From a virus, in IMG/VR virus record IMGVR_UViG_3300022928_000003, positions 1 to 58,398 of that record: a stretch of 58,398 bases of DNA, one strand, 5' to 3'. This document shows, in pieces, positions 11,418 to 30,802 of this stretch; the first letter of the stretch is position 1, and every line of letters begins with the position of its first letter. The notes beneath the pieces are model-generated. The model did no database searches. It saw nothing but the letters and a program-made list of their open reading frames with translations, and was not told the origin of the DNA. The position numbers and the translations under genes were made by a program.

Positions 11418-11924
11418 TTATTGATCAGCAAAAGCAGGTGCTGTCGCAGATACTACGTTACCCCAAATATACCAATTTGTTGAATCCTTAGCCATGATAT
11501 TAATTTCCATAATACCAAAATCAGTAAGTGTTAATTTTGAGTTTGAATTACCATCTGCATACACTGATACGTTATCTGCATTAGTGTCTAAGTGCTGCAC
11601 ACCACCAATAAAGAAGTTGGTGTCTGAACCAGAATCAATTATTAAATTTTCTGTTTCTTCAGCTGCGCCACCATATATAAGTTTAAAGGTGGCTCCTGCT
11701 GTTGGGGATGGAAGTGTGATTGTTCTATTAGCTGCTACAGCTGGTACAACCATTGTTCTTCCACTGTGTGTTGCATTATCGAGTGTTTTGTCCTCGTCTG
11801 CTAATGCTACTGGTGCATCACCCATAGTCATAACTTCTGTAATAGTTCCAGTTGTTGTGTTTTTACTAATAGTTTTGATTGTGCTTTCAGATCTAATAGG
11901 ACCTGAGAATGTTGTATTAGCCAT
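11418..11924 (-). CDS. Capsid-decoration/structural protein (168 aa)
   Basis: MANTTFSGPIRSESTIKTIS, then TNRTITLPSPTAGATFKLIYGG-like text (NRTITLPSPTAGATFKLIYG) and ETENLIIDSGSDTNFFIGG. This is a common marine phage head protein family downstream of the major capsid gene. Beta-rich, no enzyme motif. It is the first gene after the terminator at 11992-12019 and has a strong ribosome site (AAGGAGATT). Function as decoration protein is inferred from position. Confidence 0.7.
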   Translation of the reverse strand: MANTTFSGPIRSESTIKTISKNTTTGTITEVMTMGDAPVALADEDKTLDNATHSGRTMVVPAVAANRTITLPSPTAGATFKLIYGGAAEETENLIIDSGSDTNFFIGGVQHLDTNADNVSVYADGNSNSKLTLTDFGIMEINIMAKDSTNWYIWGNVVSATAPAFADQ

Positions 11925-11950
11925 GTTAATCTCCTTGTCGTGGCTATTGT

Positions 11951-11966
11951 CGAACTTAATTGTTCG
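11951..11966. repeat. Imperfect copy of the CGAACAATTGTTCG palindrome
   Basis: The sequence CGAAC-TTAATT-GTTCG lies between the terminator and the gene at 11418-11924, opposite the perfect copy at 12026-12039. The pair flanks the terminator. On the minus strand the word TTGACGAAC overlaps it, a possible weak -35 box. Confidence 0.6.
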
Positions 11967-11991
11967 TCAAGGTGATTTTAGTATACATAAA

Positions 11992-20982: not shown

Positions 20983-21269
20983 TATCTAATCCCTTTAAAC
21001 ATTCCGCCTCTGCCTTTGGCAACACCGCCCATGTTCATCTTCTTAACTTTACCACCGTCCATCATACCAACGGGCATGGACTTGGTTGTGTTTACTACGC
21101 CACCATCTGCTTTTTTTGCTATTTTGCCTAAAACAATTTCTTTTATTCCTGCGGGAAGGTTTTTCATTGGATTAGCTCCTCGATTTGCTTTAACCAAAGT
21201 ACCTTCAGATTTTAAAATATTTTCTGCAAGTTTTTGCATTTTTGAACTCATTTTATTTTTACCAGCCAT
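20982..21269 (-). CDS. Small basic glycine-rich protein (95 aa)
   Basis: MAGKNKMSSKMQKLAENILK, then PMKNLPAGIKEIVLGKIAKK, then a tail with GGKVKKMNMGGVAKGRGG. The tail matches the C-terminus of its upstream-coordinate neighbour (GGKVQKMKYGGVAKGG), suggesting a duplicated motif. It is coupled to TerL and the 262-aa gene by single-base overlaps. Function unknown, virion-associated likely. Confidence 0.7.
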   Translation of the reverse strand: MAGKNKMSSKMQKLAENILKSEGTLVKANRGANPMKNLPAGIKEIVLGKIAKKADGGVVNTTKSMPVGMMDGGKVKKMNMGGVAKGRGGMFKGIR

Positions 21270-22753
21270 TAGTAATACTCCATTTTTCTTCTATATCCTG
21301 GTTCAAACTCTTCATCGTCAGGTGTGGATATAAAACCACCTTGTCTGAATCTTAGTATAGCCTGTGTCATTGAATCTGCCAAGTCATCATGATCTCCATG
21401 TGGAAAACTCGCACATTCCTCAACAACTTCCTCTGCAAAATTAGCATCTGGTCTCCATACCATACCACTTTCAAACACAGGTGCGCAAGCATTCATCCTT
21501 GCAAACTTATCAGCACCTTTGCTCGGTGTAAAGGGTGTAACAGGAATACCCATACGTCTTAATTCTTGTGTTAAAGGTGTACCACTTGCTTTTTGCTCTA
21601 TCAATATCATGTCTGGATCATAAGCATCGCTTAATTCATAAGCCTTTTGCTTCAGTTCTGGGAAATCCCATCTGCCCTTCTCTGCATCAAGTAAAATAAT
21701 TGCATCACCCTCACCTTCTACTGGTGTAAATATCCCCCAAGTAGTAATAGCACTAAAGTCAGCACGATCATTTTTACTGAAAGCGGTATCGTATGATTGT
21801 ATGATATATGAGCAGGGAGGTGGTTCAGCATGATCCCAAACATTCCACCATTCCCTTTTTATTATAGCTCCTTCTTCTGCCGTTGGGTTTTGCATATACT
21901 GTGCATTCCACTTGGCTACTGGAATTGACGCTTTTACTCCGTCTAATTCCTCTCGACTCCAATATTCGGGCCATAGTACATTGTTTGTATCTGGAAATAT
22001 TGCAGGAAACTCCACGACTTCCCATCTATCTGCTCCTCCTTCAGCTTGCTTAGATATAACCCTAGCTGTTAAATCTTTAATACCCCATCTAGTCATAACA
22101 ATAATAATTGAACCACCTGGCTGCAATCTTTGTCGAGGACCTGACGTATACCACTCATAAATACCATCAAGTGCAGTAGGGCTTAGTGCATCTTGTTCTG
22201 ATACTGGATCATCAATGATACATAAATCTGCACCACGACCAGCTAACGCACCACCCACACCAACAGCGTAATATTCACCACCACCATTTGTTGACCATCT
22301 ACCAGATGCCTTCGCATCACTTGCTAATTTTATATCAGGAAATATATCCCTGAAGTCATCGCTATCAATTAAGTTCTTGACTTTACGTCCAAAACCTACT
22401 GCAAGTTCTGCCGTGTGTGTCGCTTGTATTATCTTCAGATCAGGTCGTCTGCCCATAAGCCACGCTGGAAACAAGTAACTAGCAAACTCTGATTTAGTAT
22501 GTCTTGGCGGCATATTGACAATCAAACGCTTAATTTTGCCGTCAGCTACTTTTTGCAACTTGTCCGCATATATTTTGTGATGTTTACCCTCAATGAAAGT
22601 GGGCCAAATCTTCTTTACAAACTTTAAATAATTTTCTTGACTTGTTTTCTGCTCTTCTAAAACTTTAAGACGATCAAGAAGAGGAGCCATCTTAGAGATT
22701 TCATCATCACTAAGATATTCTGCAAAATCTGAGGCTTGTAAAACCTGATCCAT
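21269..22753 (-). CDS. terL: Terminase large subunit (494 aa)
   Basis: The ATPase domain has a Walker A-type loop NMPPRHTKSEF (80-90), a Walker B LCIIDDPVS (about 177-185) and RWGIKDLTARV. The nuclease domain has IIQSYDTAFSKND, MILIEQKASGTPL and FPHGDHDDLADSMTQA, supplying the acidic metal ligands. This is the TerL motor that pumps DNA through the portal and cuts genome ends. Length is normal. The start overlaps the stop of the 843-aa gene. The small subunit lies 7.5 kb away at 30275. Confidence 0.94.
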   Translation of the reverse strand: MDQVLQASDFAEYLSDDEISKMAPLLDRLKVLEEQKTSQENYLKFVKKIWPTFIEGKHHKIYADKLQKVADGKIKRLIVNMPPRHTKSEFASYLFPAWLMGRRPDLKIIQATHTAELAVGFGRKVKNLIDSDDFRDIFPDIKLASDAKASGRWSTNGGGEYYAVGVGGALAGRGADLCIIDDPVSEQDALSPTALDGIYEWYTSGPRQRLQPGGSIIIVMTRWGIKDLTARVISKQAEGGADRWEVVEFPAIFPDTNNVLWPEYWSREELDGVKASIPVAKWNAQYMQNPTAEEGAIIKREWWNVWDHAEPPPCSYIIQSYDTAFSKNDRADFSAITTWGIFTPVEGEGDAIILLDAEKGRWDFPELKQKAYELSDAYDPDMILIEQKASGTPLTQELRRMGIPVTPFTPSKGADKFARMNACAPVFESGMVWRPDANFAEEVVEECASFPHGDHDDLADSMTQAILRFRQGGFISTPDDEEFEPGYRRKMEYY

Positions 22754-25329: not shown

Positions 25330-25716
25330 TTAATTTATTTTTGACAATAGAAAGCCCATTTCTTTATGGCTTTGAGCTAAAATTTTAGAAACCATGTCAG
25401 AATTTGCAGAAATATCGTCCTTCATTTTCTTCATAAGAGCCTCAATCCTGTCAACATCCCATTTCGTCAATGGCTCTTCATACTTTTTAACCTCATCATG
25501 CAATTTATCCATCTTATCCATGTTTTTACACAAATATTTCGCTGATAAAACTACAGATATCGGAACTGGTTTCGTTCCATGCTCATAATGGTTCCACATC
25601 CTATGGCTCAAACCTAATTTCTTCGCCATGTTTACCTGACTTATTCCTAATTGATTGCGATAATTCAACATTTCATTGTTTTTTACTTTCGCATAGCTGT
25701 TTTCGTTACGTTTCAT
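25330..25716 (-). CDS. HTH (Xre-type) transcriptional regulator (128 aa)
   Basis: The segment MLNYRNQLGISQVNMAKKLG followed by LSHRMWNHYEHGTKPVPISV is an Xre/Cro helix-turn-helix, with the recognition helix near residues 37-46. The C-terminal part is helical (EALMKKMKDDISANSDMVSK). It precedes the late block, so it may control it. Start has AAGGAGA. It is one of two candidate regulators (with 43790-43981) that could bind the palindrome CGAACAATTGTTCG; this is a guess. Confidence 0.8.
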   Translation of the reverse strand: MKRNENSYAKVKNNEMLNYRNQLGISQVNMAKKLGLSHRMWNHYEHGTKPVPISVVLSAKYLCKNMDKMDKLHDEVKKYEEPLTKWDVDRIEALMKKMKDDISANSDMVSKILAQSHKEMGFLLSKIN

Positions 25717-26268: not shown

Positions 26269-27474
26269 TTAATTTCTAAAAGGTTTTAAGTTTGATTTAT
26301 ATTGGTTGTCTAATCCAAGTAATAAATTTGTACCGCCATTGTTAGCGAATACAGCACCGCCAGAGCCACTATTTACTTGTAATGGTACTTCATAGCCGTT
26401 TAGATCATAACGTCCTTGAGAAGAGCTGTAAGCGTGATTATAGTGTTGTTGATTATGAGTGATTAAAATATCACGTCCAAACTGATTAATTAAGTTTGGT
26501 CTTATTTGCTCACTTATCATAGACCTAACACGCTGAGCGGTTTGAATACCGCTAGCATCCATGATCTCTTGGACTGTAGCACCGCCAACACGTCTCATTA
26601 ATGAGTATGCTATTGATTGTCTAGTACGACTAGAGCGCCCAATATAAGACGGTGTATCAATAACGGCTTGCACTTGGTTATGTCTATTAACAATTGAGTG
26701 TCTTTGCATGTTAGATAAAAACATCATCCAAGACCATATTTTATCAATTTCTAAAGTACCGCCATGCGATCTAAATTCTACAGTTTCATAATCATCCCAA
26801 TGATTAAGATTAATAGCTGAGAATTTACCGCCAACTGAGATAACACGTTTTAATTTGTGCCAAGTACACTCAGTATTTTTTATAGTACTTGGCGCTAATG
26901 GTTTTTTGCAAAAATAACCGTTTTTTTGTCTTGCTCTTCTCATAGGCTCAACTGCATAACCACCATCATCAATTCTTGACGGCGCAAGCAAAGAATTAAA
27001 CTGTATAATATTTTTGCTTACTCTGTATCCCATATCTTTAACAATCTCTAAAGGTATAGCATCACCAAAATAATCAGTACCATTGCGACTAGGTAAAGCT
27101 CGTCCATGAATAGCAGTATATTCAACTGATTTATCATGAAAATCATTTGGATCAATTGTTATTGGTCGTCTAGATAAATGAACATGAATGGATGCAGTCC
27201 AATTGACGGTTGCGCCATGATCGTTCAATTGTTCGAGTACTGATTTTAAATAATTATATGATTTTTGAGAATTACTTAAAATTGGTAATCTTGCCTCGCC
27301 GTCAACTCTTGAACCATCATATACATACTCTAGACCTTTTATTTTATTTGAGCCTAGTGAATTGTTATAACGGTTCATTTCAGTATAAGACCTTGTATTA
27401 AATTCAGGTTCTACACCAAAAACAAAATTTTGGTTATCGAATATGTTTTTATTTGTGTTAATTGTATCAAACAT
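26269..27474 (-). CDS. Amidoligase (Amidoligase_2, carboxylate-amine ligase) (401 aa)
   Basis: The pattern matches the phage/bacterial amidoligase family with a glutamine-synthetase-like fold: FGVEPEF (19-25), EYVYDGSRVDGEARLPILS (49-67), SIHVHLS (95-101) and TVEFRSHGGTLE (about 230-241). These carry the Glu, Asp, His and Arg expected for metal-ATP and carboxylate binding. Family members are predicted to join a carboxylate to an amine, for example to put amino acids or peptides on cell-wall or protein targets. A gamma-glutamylcyclotransferase-like gene is next upstream, a pairing reported for this family. It has its own promoter-like region and terminator. The substrate cannot be told from sequence. 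Confidence 0.8.
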   Translation of the reverse strand: MFDTINTNKNIFDNQNFVFGVEPEFNTRSYTEMNRYNNSLGSNKIKGLEYVYDGSRVDGEARLPILSNSQKSYNYLKSVLEQLNDHGATVNWTASIHVHLSRRPITIDPNDFHDKSVEYTAIHGRALPSRNGTDYFGDAIPLEIVKDMGYRVSKNIIQFNSLLAPSRIDDGGYAVEPMRRARQKNGYFCKKPLAPSTIKNTECTWHKLKRVISVGGKFSAINLNHWDDYETVEFRSHGGTLEIDKIWSWMMFLSNMQRHSIVNRHNQVQAVIDTPSYIGRSSRTRQSIAYSLMRRVGGATVQEIMDASGIQTAQRVRSMISEQIRPNLINQFGRDILITHNQQHYNHAYSSSQGRYDLNGYEVPLQVNSGSGGAVFANNGGTNLLLGLDNQYKSNLKPFRN

Positions 27475-27541
27475 TTTGTTTATCCTTTTTTAGTTATTGT
27501 TTGGTTTTTAGGCGCATTTTGCCGCCTAAGTTTTAATTAGG

Positions 27542-27570
27542 TATATAAGGTAATGATTACAAGTATACCA
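27542..27570 (-). promoter_or_regulatory. Promoter-like site upstream of the amidoligase
   Basis: On the minus strand it has a -10 TATATA (27542-27547), the spacer word AATCATTAC seen in the other accessory promoters, and a poor -35 (TGGTAT). The shared spacer suggests the same control, perhaps with an activator making up for the weak -35. Confidence 0.5.
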
Positions 27571-28292: not shown

Positions 28293-28322
28293 TTGTCTCT
28301 CCTTTGGCTGATTAATATATAT

Positions 28323-28351
28323 AATATATAGTAATGATTGCATGTTGTCAA
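28323..28351 (-). promoter_or_regulatory. Sigma70-type promoter of the cyclotransferase-like gene
   Basis: Minus strand: TTGACA (28346-28351), 17-base spacer containing GCAATCATTAC, TATATT (28323-28328). Near consensus. The start codon is about 30 bases downstream of the -10. Confidence 0.85.
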
Positions 28352-28424
28352 GTAGTAAAAGTATAAAAACCTACAGCAACATTATTATAACCAGTTGTTA
28401 TCTAATTTCATGCTTTGCTGCCAA

Positions 28425-28573
28425 TGCGTACTGTTCCTGGCTGCGCACAGGAAGGAAACCGAACAATTGTTCACCTGCAGCCAGGAGGAAGGGGGGGGGT
28501 GGACAATTGTTCGAGCTGGACGCAAAAAAAACAGGAGCCGAAGCTCCCGTTTCCCGATCCGATCCCGAACAAT
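28425..28573. repeat. GC-rich island B with two iterated palindromes
   Basis: A block of about 150 bp that is much richer in G and C than its surroundings. It carries CGAACAATTGTTC (28460-28472), ACAATTGTTCG (28503-28513) and CGAACAATT (28566-28574), the last touching the stop codon of the next gene. It also holds a run of nine G, CCTGCAG/CCAGG words and a UUCG-loop terminator. No ORF on either strand looks real. Confidence 0.75.
28524..28548 (-). terminator. Intrinsic terminator with UUCG loop
   Basis: On the minus strand GGAGC-UUCG-GCUCC, with GG/CU flanks, is followed by eight U (28531-28524). It ends the message of the gene at 28574-28927. Confidence 0.88.
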
Positions 28574-28927
28574 TTATGCTGCAGTAATCTTCCTTCTGTC
28601 GATCATATCCCATTTAGCAACGATTTCTTCGCCTAAGATATAAACATACATATTAACAACCTTTTCAGGGTCTGAAATGTCTGTTGTTAGTTTACCAAAG
28701 TTAAATTCTTCATAGTCTTTGATAATGCCAATAACATTAAATGCCTCTTCTCCCAGCCATTTCTTAGCTTTGTATGTGCCAATTATGTAATAGTCTGTAT
28801 TAAAAGCGTTGTGGTGTACGTCTGTCCAGTCGTCATTGTCTGGTGTGTTTTCTTTTAACCAGTCTTGAAAGTATTCTTCTACTTCCTGATATTTGAATGT
28901 GTTCTTGTCTATGTCTGTAAATTGCAT
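28574..28927 (-). CDS. Acidic early protein of unknown function (117 aa)
   Basis: MQFTDIDKNTFKYQEVEEYF, DWLKENTPDNDDWTDVHHNA, FNTDYYIIGTYKAKKWLGEE. It is acidic (many Asp and Glu) with mixed helix and strand. Small acidic, single-promoter phage genes of this type are often anti-host or anti-restriction factors, but no family is recognised. It has its own promoter (28961-28989) and terminator. The stop codon is fused to a CGAACAATT motif. Confidence 0.78.
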   Translation of the reverse strand: MQFTDIDKNTFKYQEVEEYFQDWLKENTPDNDDWTDVHHNAFNTDYYIIGTYKAKKWLGEEAFNVIGIIKDYEEFNFGKLTTDISDPEKVVNMYVYILGEEIVAKWDMIDRRKITAA

Positions 28928-28960
28928 TTGTTTCTCCTTTGGTTTTGTTTAATTAATATT

Positions 28961-28989
28961 AATATAGTGTAATGATTGCAACATGTCAA
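28961..28989 (-). promoter_or_regulatory. Sigma70-type promoter of the acidic early gene
   Basis: Minus strand: TTGACA (28984-28989), 17-base spacer with GCAATCATTAC, TATATT (28961-28966). The -35 box overlaps the stop codon of the small gene at 28986-29144. Confidence 0.87.
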
Positions 28990-29144
28990 CCCTTAAATAA
29001 AACTTTTTCAATGATTACGTCATCATATCCTTTAGCTATCCATTCATCTGCGTGTTGCTTTGCTCGTGAATAGTCTTTGTAGTAATCATCTGTACCACCA
29101 ACCCAAACTATCCATCTCCAGCTCTGTTTGTATTCCTCTGTCAT
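28986..29144 (-). CDS. Small acidic protein (52 aa)
   Basis: The ATG at 29144 has a perfect GGAGG ribosome site six to seven bases upstream. It reads MTEEYKQSWRWIVWVGGTDD and ends with ADEWIAKGYDDVIIEKVLF. The sequence is well formed (amphipathic helix plus strand) and the stop overlaps the next promoter, a compact arrangement that supports a real gene. Function unknown. It has no visible promoter of its own, so it depends on read-through from the gene above or on an unseen start in island C. Confidence 0.72.
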   Translation of the reverse strand: MTEEYKQSWRWIVWVGGTDDYYKDYSRAKQHADEWIAKGYDDVIIEKVLFKG

Positions 29145-29281
29145 TTTGACCTCCTGCTGTTAACCCCGAACAATTGTTCACCTGTGCGTGACCTGCTGGG
29201 GGGGGGCTGCTTCTCGAACAATTGTTCGCCCTGCTGCCAGAAAAAACAGGATCAGGTTTCCCCGATCCCGTTCCGAACAAT
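29145..29281. repeat. GC-rich island C with two full palindromes
   Basis: It contains CGAACAATTGTTC (29167-29179), a run of G (29199-29206), CGAACAATTGTTCG (29215-29228), a terminator and CGAACAATT (29274-29282) overlapping the stop codon of the gene at 29281-29646. It has the same order of parts as island B. Confidence 0.75.
29241..29269 (-). terminator. Intrinsic terminator in island C
   Basis: Minus strand: GGGATC (29269-29264) pairs with GATCC (29253-29249) across an unpaired centre, followed by UGUUUUUU. Weaker than the others but in the same place relative to its gene. Confidence 0.68.
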
Positions 29282-29646
29282 TAGGCTGTTACTAAATTGT
29301 TCGTTGATTTGCCAGTTTCGTGAAGTCTGTGCTGCCATTCAATAACTTCGTCATTGACCAATGTTACAGCTCTTTCGCTGTGTCCACCAACATTCCACAT
29401 CATTATCTGACTAACTCTCTTACCCTCTGCTCCTAAGTAATTAAGTCCGTTCTTATAATTATATATGGTTGCTATTGTGCCATCTTCAAACTTGATAGCC
29501 CATTGAGCATCTACTTTGTTATCAGACTCCTCAGACCATTCAAATCTTGTTGGCTCTCCGAAAACTTCTACCAGCTCCTGATAAGTTGCCCCAACATTAC
29601 CCTGAAGATGTGTTCCATAAGTTGTATTTGTTTTTTTAAATTTCAT
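29281..29646 (-). CDS. Conserved phage/mobile-element protein (121 aa)
   Basis: The start is set at ATG 29646 (MKFKKTNTTYGTHLQGNVGA), with AAGGAA upstream; the longer frame begins in the promoter. GTHLQGNVGATYQELVEVFG, then a KVDAQWAIKFEDGTIATIYN region, is a conserved family I associate with phages and integrative elements (usual form GTSLQGY...FEDGTVATIYDWK). Small alpha/beta fold; no known activity. It has its own promoter and terminator. Confidence 0.78.
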   Translation of the reverse strand: MKFKKTNTTYGTHLQGNVGATYQELVEVFGEPTRFEWSEESDNKVDAQWAIKFEDGTIATIYNYKNGLNYLGAEGKRVSQIMMWNVGGHSERAVTLVNDEVIEWQHRLHETGKSTNNLVTA

Positions 29647-29681
29647 TGGCTTAGTTCCTTGTGTTTGTTTAACTTGATATA

Positions 29682-29710
29682 TATATAGCAATGATTGCCA
29701 CATGTGTCAA
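29682..29710 (-). promoter_or_regulatory. Sigma70-type promoter of the 121-aa gene
   Basis: Minus strand: TTGACA (29705-29710), 17-base spacer with GCAATCATTGC, TATATA (29682-29687). Confidence 0.86.
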
Positions 29711-29743
29711 CAGATAAAATAATTTTTTTTTATTTTTATTTAC

Positions 29744-29772
29744 TTGACAGGATTAGCAACAGTTACTATATA
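29744..29772 (+). promoter_or_regulatory. Strong plus-strand sigma70-type promoter
   Basis: TTGACA (29744-29749), exactly 17 bases, TATATA (29767-29772). It points away from the minus-strand gene at 29281-29646, and no plus-strand protein ORF follows before a terminator. Confidence 0.78.
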
Positions 29773-29778
29773 TAATAC

Positions 29779-29854
29779 ATCAAGCATTTAAATATCCTTT
29801 GTTTAATTGTAAAAGTAAAAAGAGCAGGTTTTGGTTTTCCTGCTCTTTTTTTTT
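29779..29854 (+). ncRNA. Candidate phage small RNA (about 75 nt)
   Basis: A near-consensus promoter (29744-29772) is followed about 50 bases later by a terminator hairpin, AGAGCAGG (29821-29828) pairing with CCTGCTCT (29839-29846), then nine U. The predicted transcript has an A/U-rich 40-base single-stranded 5' part and no start codon in a useful frame. That is the architecture of a trans-acting small RNA with a possible Hfq-type U tail. No target is known, and no known RNA family is recognised. Confidence 0.6.
29821..29854 (+). terminator. Bidirectional intrinsic terminator
   Basis: An 8-bp perfect stem, extended by A-U pairs to about 12, with a 10-base loop and a run of U on the plus side. 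The minus-strand side also has five U and could end the small-terminase message. Confidence 0.88.
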
Positions 29855-30260
29855 GCGCAGCCTCCAGGGAACCTGCCCGAACAATTGTTCATGCGCAGCA
29901 GGAACGCCTGGAGCTGCAGGTGAAGGTTTCCGAACAATTGTTCCAGCAAGCAGGTCAGGCAGCCAGGCGAAACTCCGATCCTTCCAGGCTGCAGGGCTTC
30001 TTTTTCCGAACAATTGTTCACGCAGGAGGCTGTCCAGCCAGGTAGATCCCGATAACGCTGCTGGATCCAGGGATAACCTGCTGCCGTTCCGAACAATTGT
30101 ACGATCCCCGCTGCTGGAGAAGCCCGATCCCGTTCCGATTCAGGGGGGGGTGACCTTCCTGAAGCCGAACAATTCTCCCGATTACGCCCAAATCCAGCCC
30201 CGATCACCCCGATCCCGCTGCGAGTCCGAACAATTCTTCGGTCTCCGTGCCTACACCCTG
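29855..30260. repeat. GC-rich island D with six iterated motifs
   Basis: About 400 bp without a convincing gene. Motif copies are at 29878-29890, 29931-29943, 30007-30019, 30090-30100, 30166-30174 and 30227-30235, every 53-83 bases. Between them are GC-rich words (CCTGC, CCAGG, GATCCCG, CTGCAG) and a run of eight G. ORFs on both strands here lack ribosome sites and have odd composition. Confidence 0.75.
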
Positions 30261-30274
30261 TCTAAGTAAATATG

Positions 30275-30802
30275 CTAGTTTTTGGGTTTTACGCTACTTT
30301 GTTCTATCAAGTCTGGGTCTTTATGGGATTTGTTCGCTATTTTCATGCGTTTCTGCGCAATGTCTTGAAATTCCTGTAGTTTTGACAATATTTCCTCCCT
30401 TGTCATGCTATCTGTTCGTTCATGTAGCACATGAGCCTTGTTTACAAGCAGTCCAGTAGCTTTTAAACGCAGTTCCTCAGCTCTGATAGCCTCACCAAAC
30501 TTCCCGCTCTCCCACGCCTCGTTACGAATCTTCAACAAATCCCGCACCGACTTATCAATTGTGACCCCGAAGCGACTACGGGCTTCCTCACGCATTTCCT
30601 GATATCTTTCCTGCACGACTGGGTTACGCAACAACCTCACAGCATCGACTCCAGGGTTTGCGTATCCCGCTGCTCTAGCAGCCGATGTCTGCGTCATATC
30701 CTTGTGCATAAAGTTATTCAGAAAATCTTGCTGTTTGTCAGTCAATCTTTTCCATCCAGCTAATCGCTGTTCCTTCGTTAAATTCTCAGCTACTTTTGGC
30801 AT
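30275..30802 (-). CDS. terS: Terminase small subunit (175 aa)
   Basis: LTDKQQDFLNNFMHKDMTQT followed by SAARAAGYANPGVDAVRLLR is the N-terminal helix-turn-helix of the Terminase_2-type small subunit. Then come NPVVQERYQEMREEARSRFG and coiled-coil helices (EAIRAEELRLKATGLLVNKA). TerS binds the packaging site and regulates TerL. It has an AGGAGA ribosome site. It is 7.5 kb from terL, separated by the accessory block, and it is preceded by the GTAAGT repeat array, a natural candidate for its DNA site. Confidence 0.88.
   Translation of the reverse strand: MPKVAENLTKEQRLAGWKRLTDKQQDFLNNFMHKDMTQTSAARAAGYANPGVDAVRLLRNPVVQERYQEMREEARSRFGVTIDKSVRDLLKIRNEAWESGKFGEAIRAEELRLKATGLLVNKAHVLHERTDSMTREEILSKLQEFQDIAQKRMKIANKSHKDPDLIEQSSVKPKN

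Follow-up and report, generated by a model that had tools for sequence, protein, structure and literature searches.

The window analysed here is the whole of the virus record IMGVR_UViG_3300022928_000003 (58,398 bases), whose large terminase is ~60% identical to those of the Pelagibacter phage HTVC027P, 023Pt_psg01 and DSL-LC04. A variable cassette block, situated between the small terminase gene (30275-30802) and the large one (21269-22753), encodes proteins of 121, 52 and 117 aa, a gamma-glutamyl cyclotransferase and an amidoligase-like protein, several of these genes having their own promoter. This block is the setting of a short plus-strand transcription unit that is read opposite to the neighbouring genes, as the first-pass annotation had stated; its placement of the site in an early region was imprecise. 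The gene of the 121-aa protein (29281-29646, minus strand, no assigned family) diverges from the unit within the same cassette, and its promoter (29683-29710, minus strand) stands back to back with that of the unit. The 121-aa protein has no match in Pfam or PHROG; numerous viral contigs encode relatives of it, with identities as low as 36%. A further feature of the region is the palindrome CGAACAATTGTTCG with its variants, of which 33 lie within three mismatches, against 2.3 expected, from 12026 to 52043. These palindromes are densest at 28460-30240, in GC-rich stretches between cassette genes, and are kept in relatives.

A promoter of the phage's own class

The unit begins with a sigma-70-type promoter (29744-29772, plus strand), in which TTGACA (29744-29749) and TATATA (29767-29772; five of six positions agree with TATAAT, the sixth base being A) are separated by a 17-nt spacer. 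About 45 nt of A/T-rich sequence then lead to a terminator hairpin with its T-tract (29817-29854), and no plausible ORF was found within 29744-29854. The promoter and terminator without an ORF that had been proposed from the first reading are thus confirmed. A generic scan missed both elements only because it required T at position 6 of the -10 box and a terminator loop of no more than 8 nt.

The pattern TTGACA-N16-18-TATAW occurs five times in the window, against 0.62 expected, and a count of five was reached in none of 100 shuffles. The other four promoters of this pattern lie upstream of minus-strand genes, and the promoter region of the unit matches the minus-strand promoter near 28317-28369 at 77% over ~50 bases. 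The set of five and this match indicate that the phage's own promoter class is used here in the reversed direction. Given that the class precedes early minus-strand genes and that the whole unit recurs in related contigs, the site is not a product of chance, in agreement with the earlier claim.

Within the promoter lies an operator-like palindrome, GCAACAGTTAC (29756-29766, plus strand), which is a symmetric variant of the early-gene promoter palindrome GYAATSATTRC. The latter stands between -35 and -10 in most of the 52 distinct early-promoter contexts collected from relatives, and a similar palindrome is also found near the amidoligase promoter. The broader form GYAAYNRTTRC, which lies in the -35/-10 gap of cassette promoters, occurs seven times in the window, against 1.5 expected, with sites of this type at 28331-28341, 28969-28979, 29688-29698, 27550-27560 and 29756-29766. 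An Xre-like protein is encoded at 25330-25716.

Structure and conservation of the RNA

The predicted product is a non-coding antisense RNA of ~76 nt (29779-29854, plus strand; 106 bits with the covariance model of the family), its 5' end being placed from the -10 box and its 3' end from the T-tract. Hairpin 1 (29784-29810, plus strand) carries an apical loop UCCUU (29795-29799) that is complementary to the Shine-Dalgarno sequence, and the terminator hairpin has the near-invariant loop UYUUGGUUUU. The folding z-score is -5.6 for the 76-nt RNA and -5.1 for hairpin 1 alone. The terminator ends in nine T (29846-29854), as first described; its stem, given there as 8 bp, is a GC-cored stem of 12 bp (AAAAAGAGCAGG at 29817-29828 with CCTGCTCTTTTT at 29839-29850) around a 10-nt loop.

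Relatives were gathered through homologues of the 121-aa gene and a scan with the terminator pattern. The whole promoter-RNA unit is present in about 30 related viral contigs (26 by terminator pattern, besides the window), which fall into 15 distinct versions. When the 13 distinct transcripts are folded one by one, both hairpins form in every case and the first loop holds UCCU(U). Among the versions, there is little or no change in TCCTTTGTT and the loop TYTTGGTTTTCC, the hairpin 1 loop UCCUUUGUU is invariant, and the plus-strand promoter and a tract of eight or nine T persist while the flanks diverge. A check for relatives with a broken promoter and hairpin, suggested by the first-pass annotation, found the hairpins retained in every relative; in one subgroup (L012, L014, L017-L020) the -35 box is weakened to TTGTAA and the -10 box remains. 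L015 forms hairpin 1 from a different stem (AACAUGAUAA/UUGUUAUGUU) of 10 fully paired bp, and both L015 and L021 are recovered, at 71 and 56 bits, by a covariance model from which they had been left out. In L071 (5900-6060), ~60 nt of extra sequence with a GGGAG...CTCCC hairpin stand between the RNA promoter and hairpin 1.

The changes in the terminator stem are informative about the strand. Pair 56-71 is AU in eight versions, GU in two and GC in one, and another pair is either C-G or U-G; these are wobbles in the plus-strand RNA that would be A.C mismatches in a minus-strand RNA. Covariation of the stem had been suggested as a check by the first-pass annotation; its total in a MAFFT alignment does not rise above shuffles (153/500), since few positions vary, and the pair counts understate hairpin 1, as that of L015 and L021 is not alignable by MAFFT. 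The recurrence of the unit, the retention of both hairpins on independent folding and the stem pairing that holds in the plus RNA only make it very likely that the ~76-nt RNA is real, which gives good support to the candidate phage small RNA of the first reading. With its own promoter, an intrinsic terminator and no conserved ORF, it has the organisation of a trans-encoded base-pairing small RNA.

The RNA family is new to Rfam. None of 4227 Rfam families matched at gathering level, the best sub-threshold score being 27.7 bits against a cut-off of 60, and the weak matches, all below gathering, are attributed to chance. When relatives that lack the cassette, HTVC027P, DSL-LC04 and 023Pt_psg01 were searched with the covariance model, no convincing copy emerged (best sub-threshold E 0.09), a DNA search of cultured phages found no copy, and the terminator pattern had no match in 84,980 bacterial and archaeal genomes. 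The extra matches of a loose pattern in viral contigs, AATCCTTTGTT..GGTYTTGG, lie mostly in coding sequence and were rejected as largely due to chance. Two papers on pelagiphages, in full text, make no mention of small RNAs or promoters. A searchable covariance model of the family now exists. Elsewhere in the window, the Rfam Mu-gpT-DE RNA (RF03012, 50.9 bits) is found at 11922-11972 on the minus strand, just 3' of a Mu gpT-like major capsid gene.

The amidoligase-like mRNA as pairing partner

The amidoligase-like gene (PF12224, 33.8 bits, cut-off 22; 26269-27474, minus strand) encodes a protein of 401 aa, lies 2.3 kb from the RNA gene and is the proposed main target. In the window, the start codon of this mRNA can be covered by 11 bp with the RNA, one of them G.U, and its Shine-Dalgarno sequence by 8 bp, with further pairs beyond. 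The target region (27466-27508, minus strand) comprises AAATGTTTGAT at the start codon (27476-27466), AAAGGATA at the Shine-Dalgarno (27488-27481) and, upstream in the leader, the terminator-loop match AAAACCAAA (27508-27500), and the order of the blocks permits simultaneous pairing. At -29.3 kcal/mol, the amidoligase leader ranks first among the leaders of the 61 genes in the window, for which the mean is -17.3 and the sd 3.7. Pairing between cognate RNA and amidoligase leader ranges from -25.8 to -33.7 in 10 genomes, and when RNAs were swapped, the targets of L015 and L021 paired best with their own RNA.

Pairing by the 5' half was compared with shuffles that preserved the core UCCUUU, and was equalled by 0-1 of 400 in five of seven genomes, by 6 in L021 and by 28 in L015; as the sequences are related, these counts overstate independence. 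Pairing by the terminator loop alone was not significant in six of seven genomes, the exception being L017. Complementarity to the start codon is strong only in the lineage of the window, and is lost or shortened in L015, L017, L020 and L021, while the Shine-Dalgarno block is longer in L017 and L021 (12 and 13 nt). By computation, the RNA is thus imperfectly complementary to the mRNA of another locus, and this complementarity is conserved, as in trans-encoded small RNAs.

Leaders in this phage group are of the style AAACAAA..AAGGA, to which hairpin 1 is complementary, and hairpin 1 used by itself in RNAduplex did not point to a clear target (two gene starts were misassigned in that run). The amidoligase was singled out when a match of the leader to the terminator loop was required as well, and is a target chosen after looking. 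In contigs that bear the RNA, AAAACCAA..AAAGGA..ATG occurs only before one amidoligase allele, besides the minus strand of the element itself; it is absent from all 55 related contigs that lack the RNA, and the random expectation is 0.025 per 58 kb. The fragment L026, which has the same amidoligase allele and from which the interval of the RNA is absent, also has this leader.

Two amidoligase alleles (77-100% against 26-36% identity) occupy one position, with different leaders, in contigs whose small terminases are at least 83% identical. The RNA is present at all 33 loci (16 contigs) that have the close allele and a complete interval, at one of 32 loci with the distant allele (L024), and is absent from one intermediate locus (L162). 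On contigs of sufficient length, it is always accompanied by the 121-aa gene. Given that the block may move together, the allele association is supporting evidence and not proof.

Several other explanations have to be weighed against a specific action on the amidoligase mRNA. A real small RNA could instead be an anti-Shine-Dalgarno regulator of many mRNAs with no single main target, the UCCUUUGUU loop acting on the AAACAAA..AAGGA leaders that several early cassettes share (121-aa, 117-aa, cyclotransferase and amidoligase genes) or on host mRNAs. Perfect complements of at least 9 nt to the RNA's own hairpin 1 occur in 23 of 178 distinct leaders, whereas UCCUUU-keeping shuffles give a mean of 4 and a maximum of 14 (n=300); the invariance of the loop and the RNA of L024, which has no matching amidoligase allele, point the same way. 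Such a regulator is nevertheless unlikely in our view, as the amidoligase leader outranks every other in the window and leaders of this type are also common in relatives without the RNA. The back-to-back promoters, the restriction of the RNA to contigs with the 121-aa gene and a 9-nt match (UUUGUUUAA/UUAAACAAA) would fit a divergent regulator of that gene, pairing with its leader GUUAAACAAACACAAGGAAC as IstR-1 does with tisB. However, this pairing is weaker than that with the amidoligase and falls outside the best 14 of 61, the gene does not encode a small hydrophobic toxin, and L025 has the gene (67% identical) and the other, distant amidoligase allele but no RNA, so that we find this reading improbable.

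It is more improbable still that there is no RNA gene at all, and that the site combines a bidirectional terminator, remnants of an early-gene leader in inverted orientation (minus strand TTAAACAAAGGATATTTAAATG) and a chance promoter. The minus strand does resemble an early leader with a start codon, and has a hairpin with five T. Against this, the wobble changes favour the plus RNA, the plus-strand promoter and T-tract outlast their flanks, and relatives do not conserve the short frame of the minus strand (MLDVLYIVTVANPVK in the window, MLDTILYSNCY in L012, MLLYI in L015). On the unconserved frame and the wobble changes, a minus-strand peptide or leader gene was likewise rejected.

Proposed regulation and known systems

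The RNA is probably a trans-encoded antisense RNA that represses the phage's amidoligase-like mRNA, and this specific target is a well-supported prediction from the sequences. The first reading had offered control of host or phage mRNA; its direction is supported, and the evidence points more specifically to one phage mRNA, that of the amidoligase-like gene starting at 27474. Transcription from the early-class promoter would start at about 29779, most likely early or constitutively, and stop at the intrinsic terminator at 29854, and the RNA would fold into its two hairpins. Its 5' half would then pair with the amidoligase mRNA in the region where translation is initiated, AUCAAGCAUUU binding AAAUGUUUGAU at the start codon and UAUCCUUU binding AAAGGAUA at the Shine-Dalgarno, and the terminator loop UUUGGUUUU might also touch AAAACCAAA upstream. 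Ribosome binding would be blocked, so that the amidoligase would be held down or timed, the RNA setting a threshold or delay; other AAACAAA..AAGGA leaders may be affected more weakly. Since the palindrome in the RNA promoter is a variant and a similar one lies near the amidoligase promoter, a shared regulator acting differently on both can be speculated upon.

It is possible, albeit doubtful, that the RNA gene arose as an inverted copy of the leader and start codons of the amidoligase gene, placed after a duplicate of an early promoter, the palindrome of which was symmetrically changed (GYAATSATTRC to GYAACAGTTRC); antisense repressor and target would thus form a mobile regulatory pair with two related, distinct control sites. 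If the antisense reading holds, it points to post-transcriptional regulation of accessory metabolic genes in phages of this marine group, here through a conserved RNA whose mRNA partner is specific and testable. To our knowledge, a target has been named for only a few of the antisense RNAs that phages encode, and enterobacterial phages are the source of most known cases.

IstR-1 of Escherichia coli, about 75 nt long, offers a close parallel in layout. Transcribed from a promoter of its own and divergent from its neighbour, tisB, this short antisense RNA stops translation through pairing with the leader (PMC4147584). The 76-nt RNA resembles it in its length class, own promoter, divergence from the neighbouring gene and proposed leader pairing; in contrast, its best target is 2.3 kb away and not the divergent neighbour, its pairing covers the Shine-Dalgarno and start codon and not a standby site, and the target is a 401-aa enzyme and not a small membrane toxin. 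A type I toxin-antitoxin system would have a small hydrophobic toxic target divergent from the RNA, whereas here the candidate proteins have 401 and 121 aa and the divergent neighbour does not have the best-pairing leader.

Among phage RNAs, OOP and sar are encoded opposite their targets. Both OOP (lambda) and sar (P22) are short antisense RNAs that repress phage mRNA (reviewed in PMC12197685), and the 76-nt RNA shares with them its phage origin, its orientation against the neighbouring genes and its proposed phage mRNA target. Unlike the perfectly complementary, opposite-strand arrangement of OOP-type cis antisense RNAs, it does not overlap its proposed target, 2.3 kb away, and pairs imperfectly in several blocks. 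Trans-encoded base-pairing small RNAs usually use Hfq or ProQ. PreS of lambda acts on a host mRNA and VpdS of VP882 on host and phage RNAs, both binding Hfq (PMC12197685). The proposed trans action on another mRNA by a phage-encoded small RNA is a feature in common, whereas for the 76-nt RNA no host target or use of Hfq is known. The alphaproteobacterial small RNAs CcsR and ar14 have anti-Shine-Dalgarno loops, and a pyrimidine-rich apical loop able to pair with the Shine-Dalgarno is also found here; the 76-nt RNA differs from them in having no sequence or Rfam relation to either, and in combining a single UCCUU loop with extended flanking complementarity.
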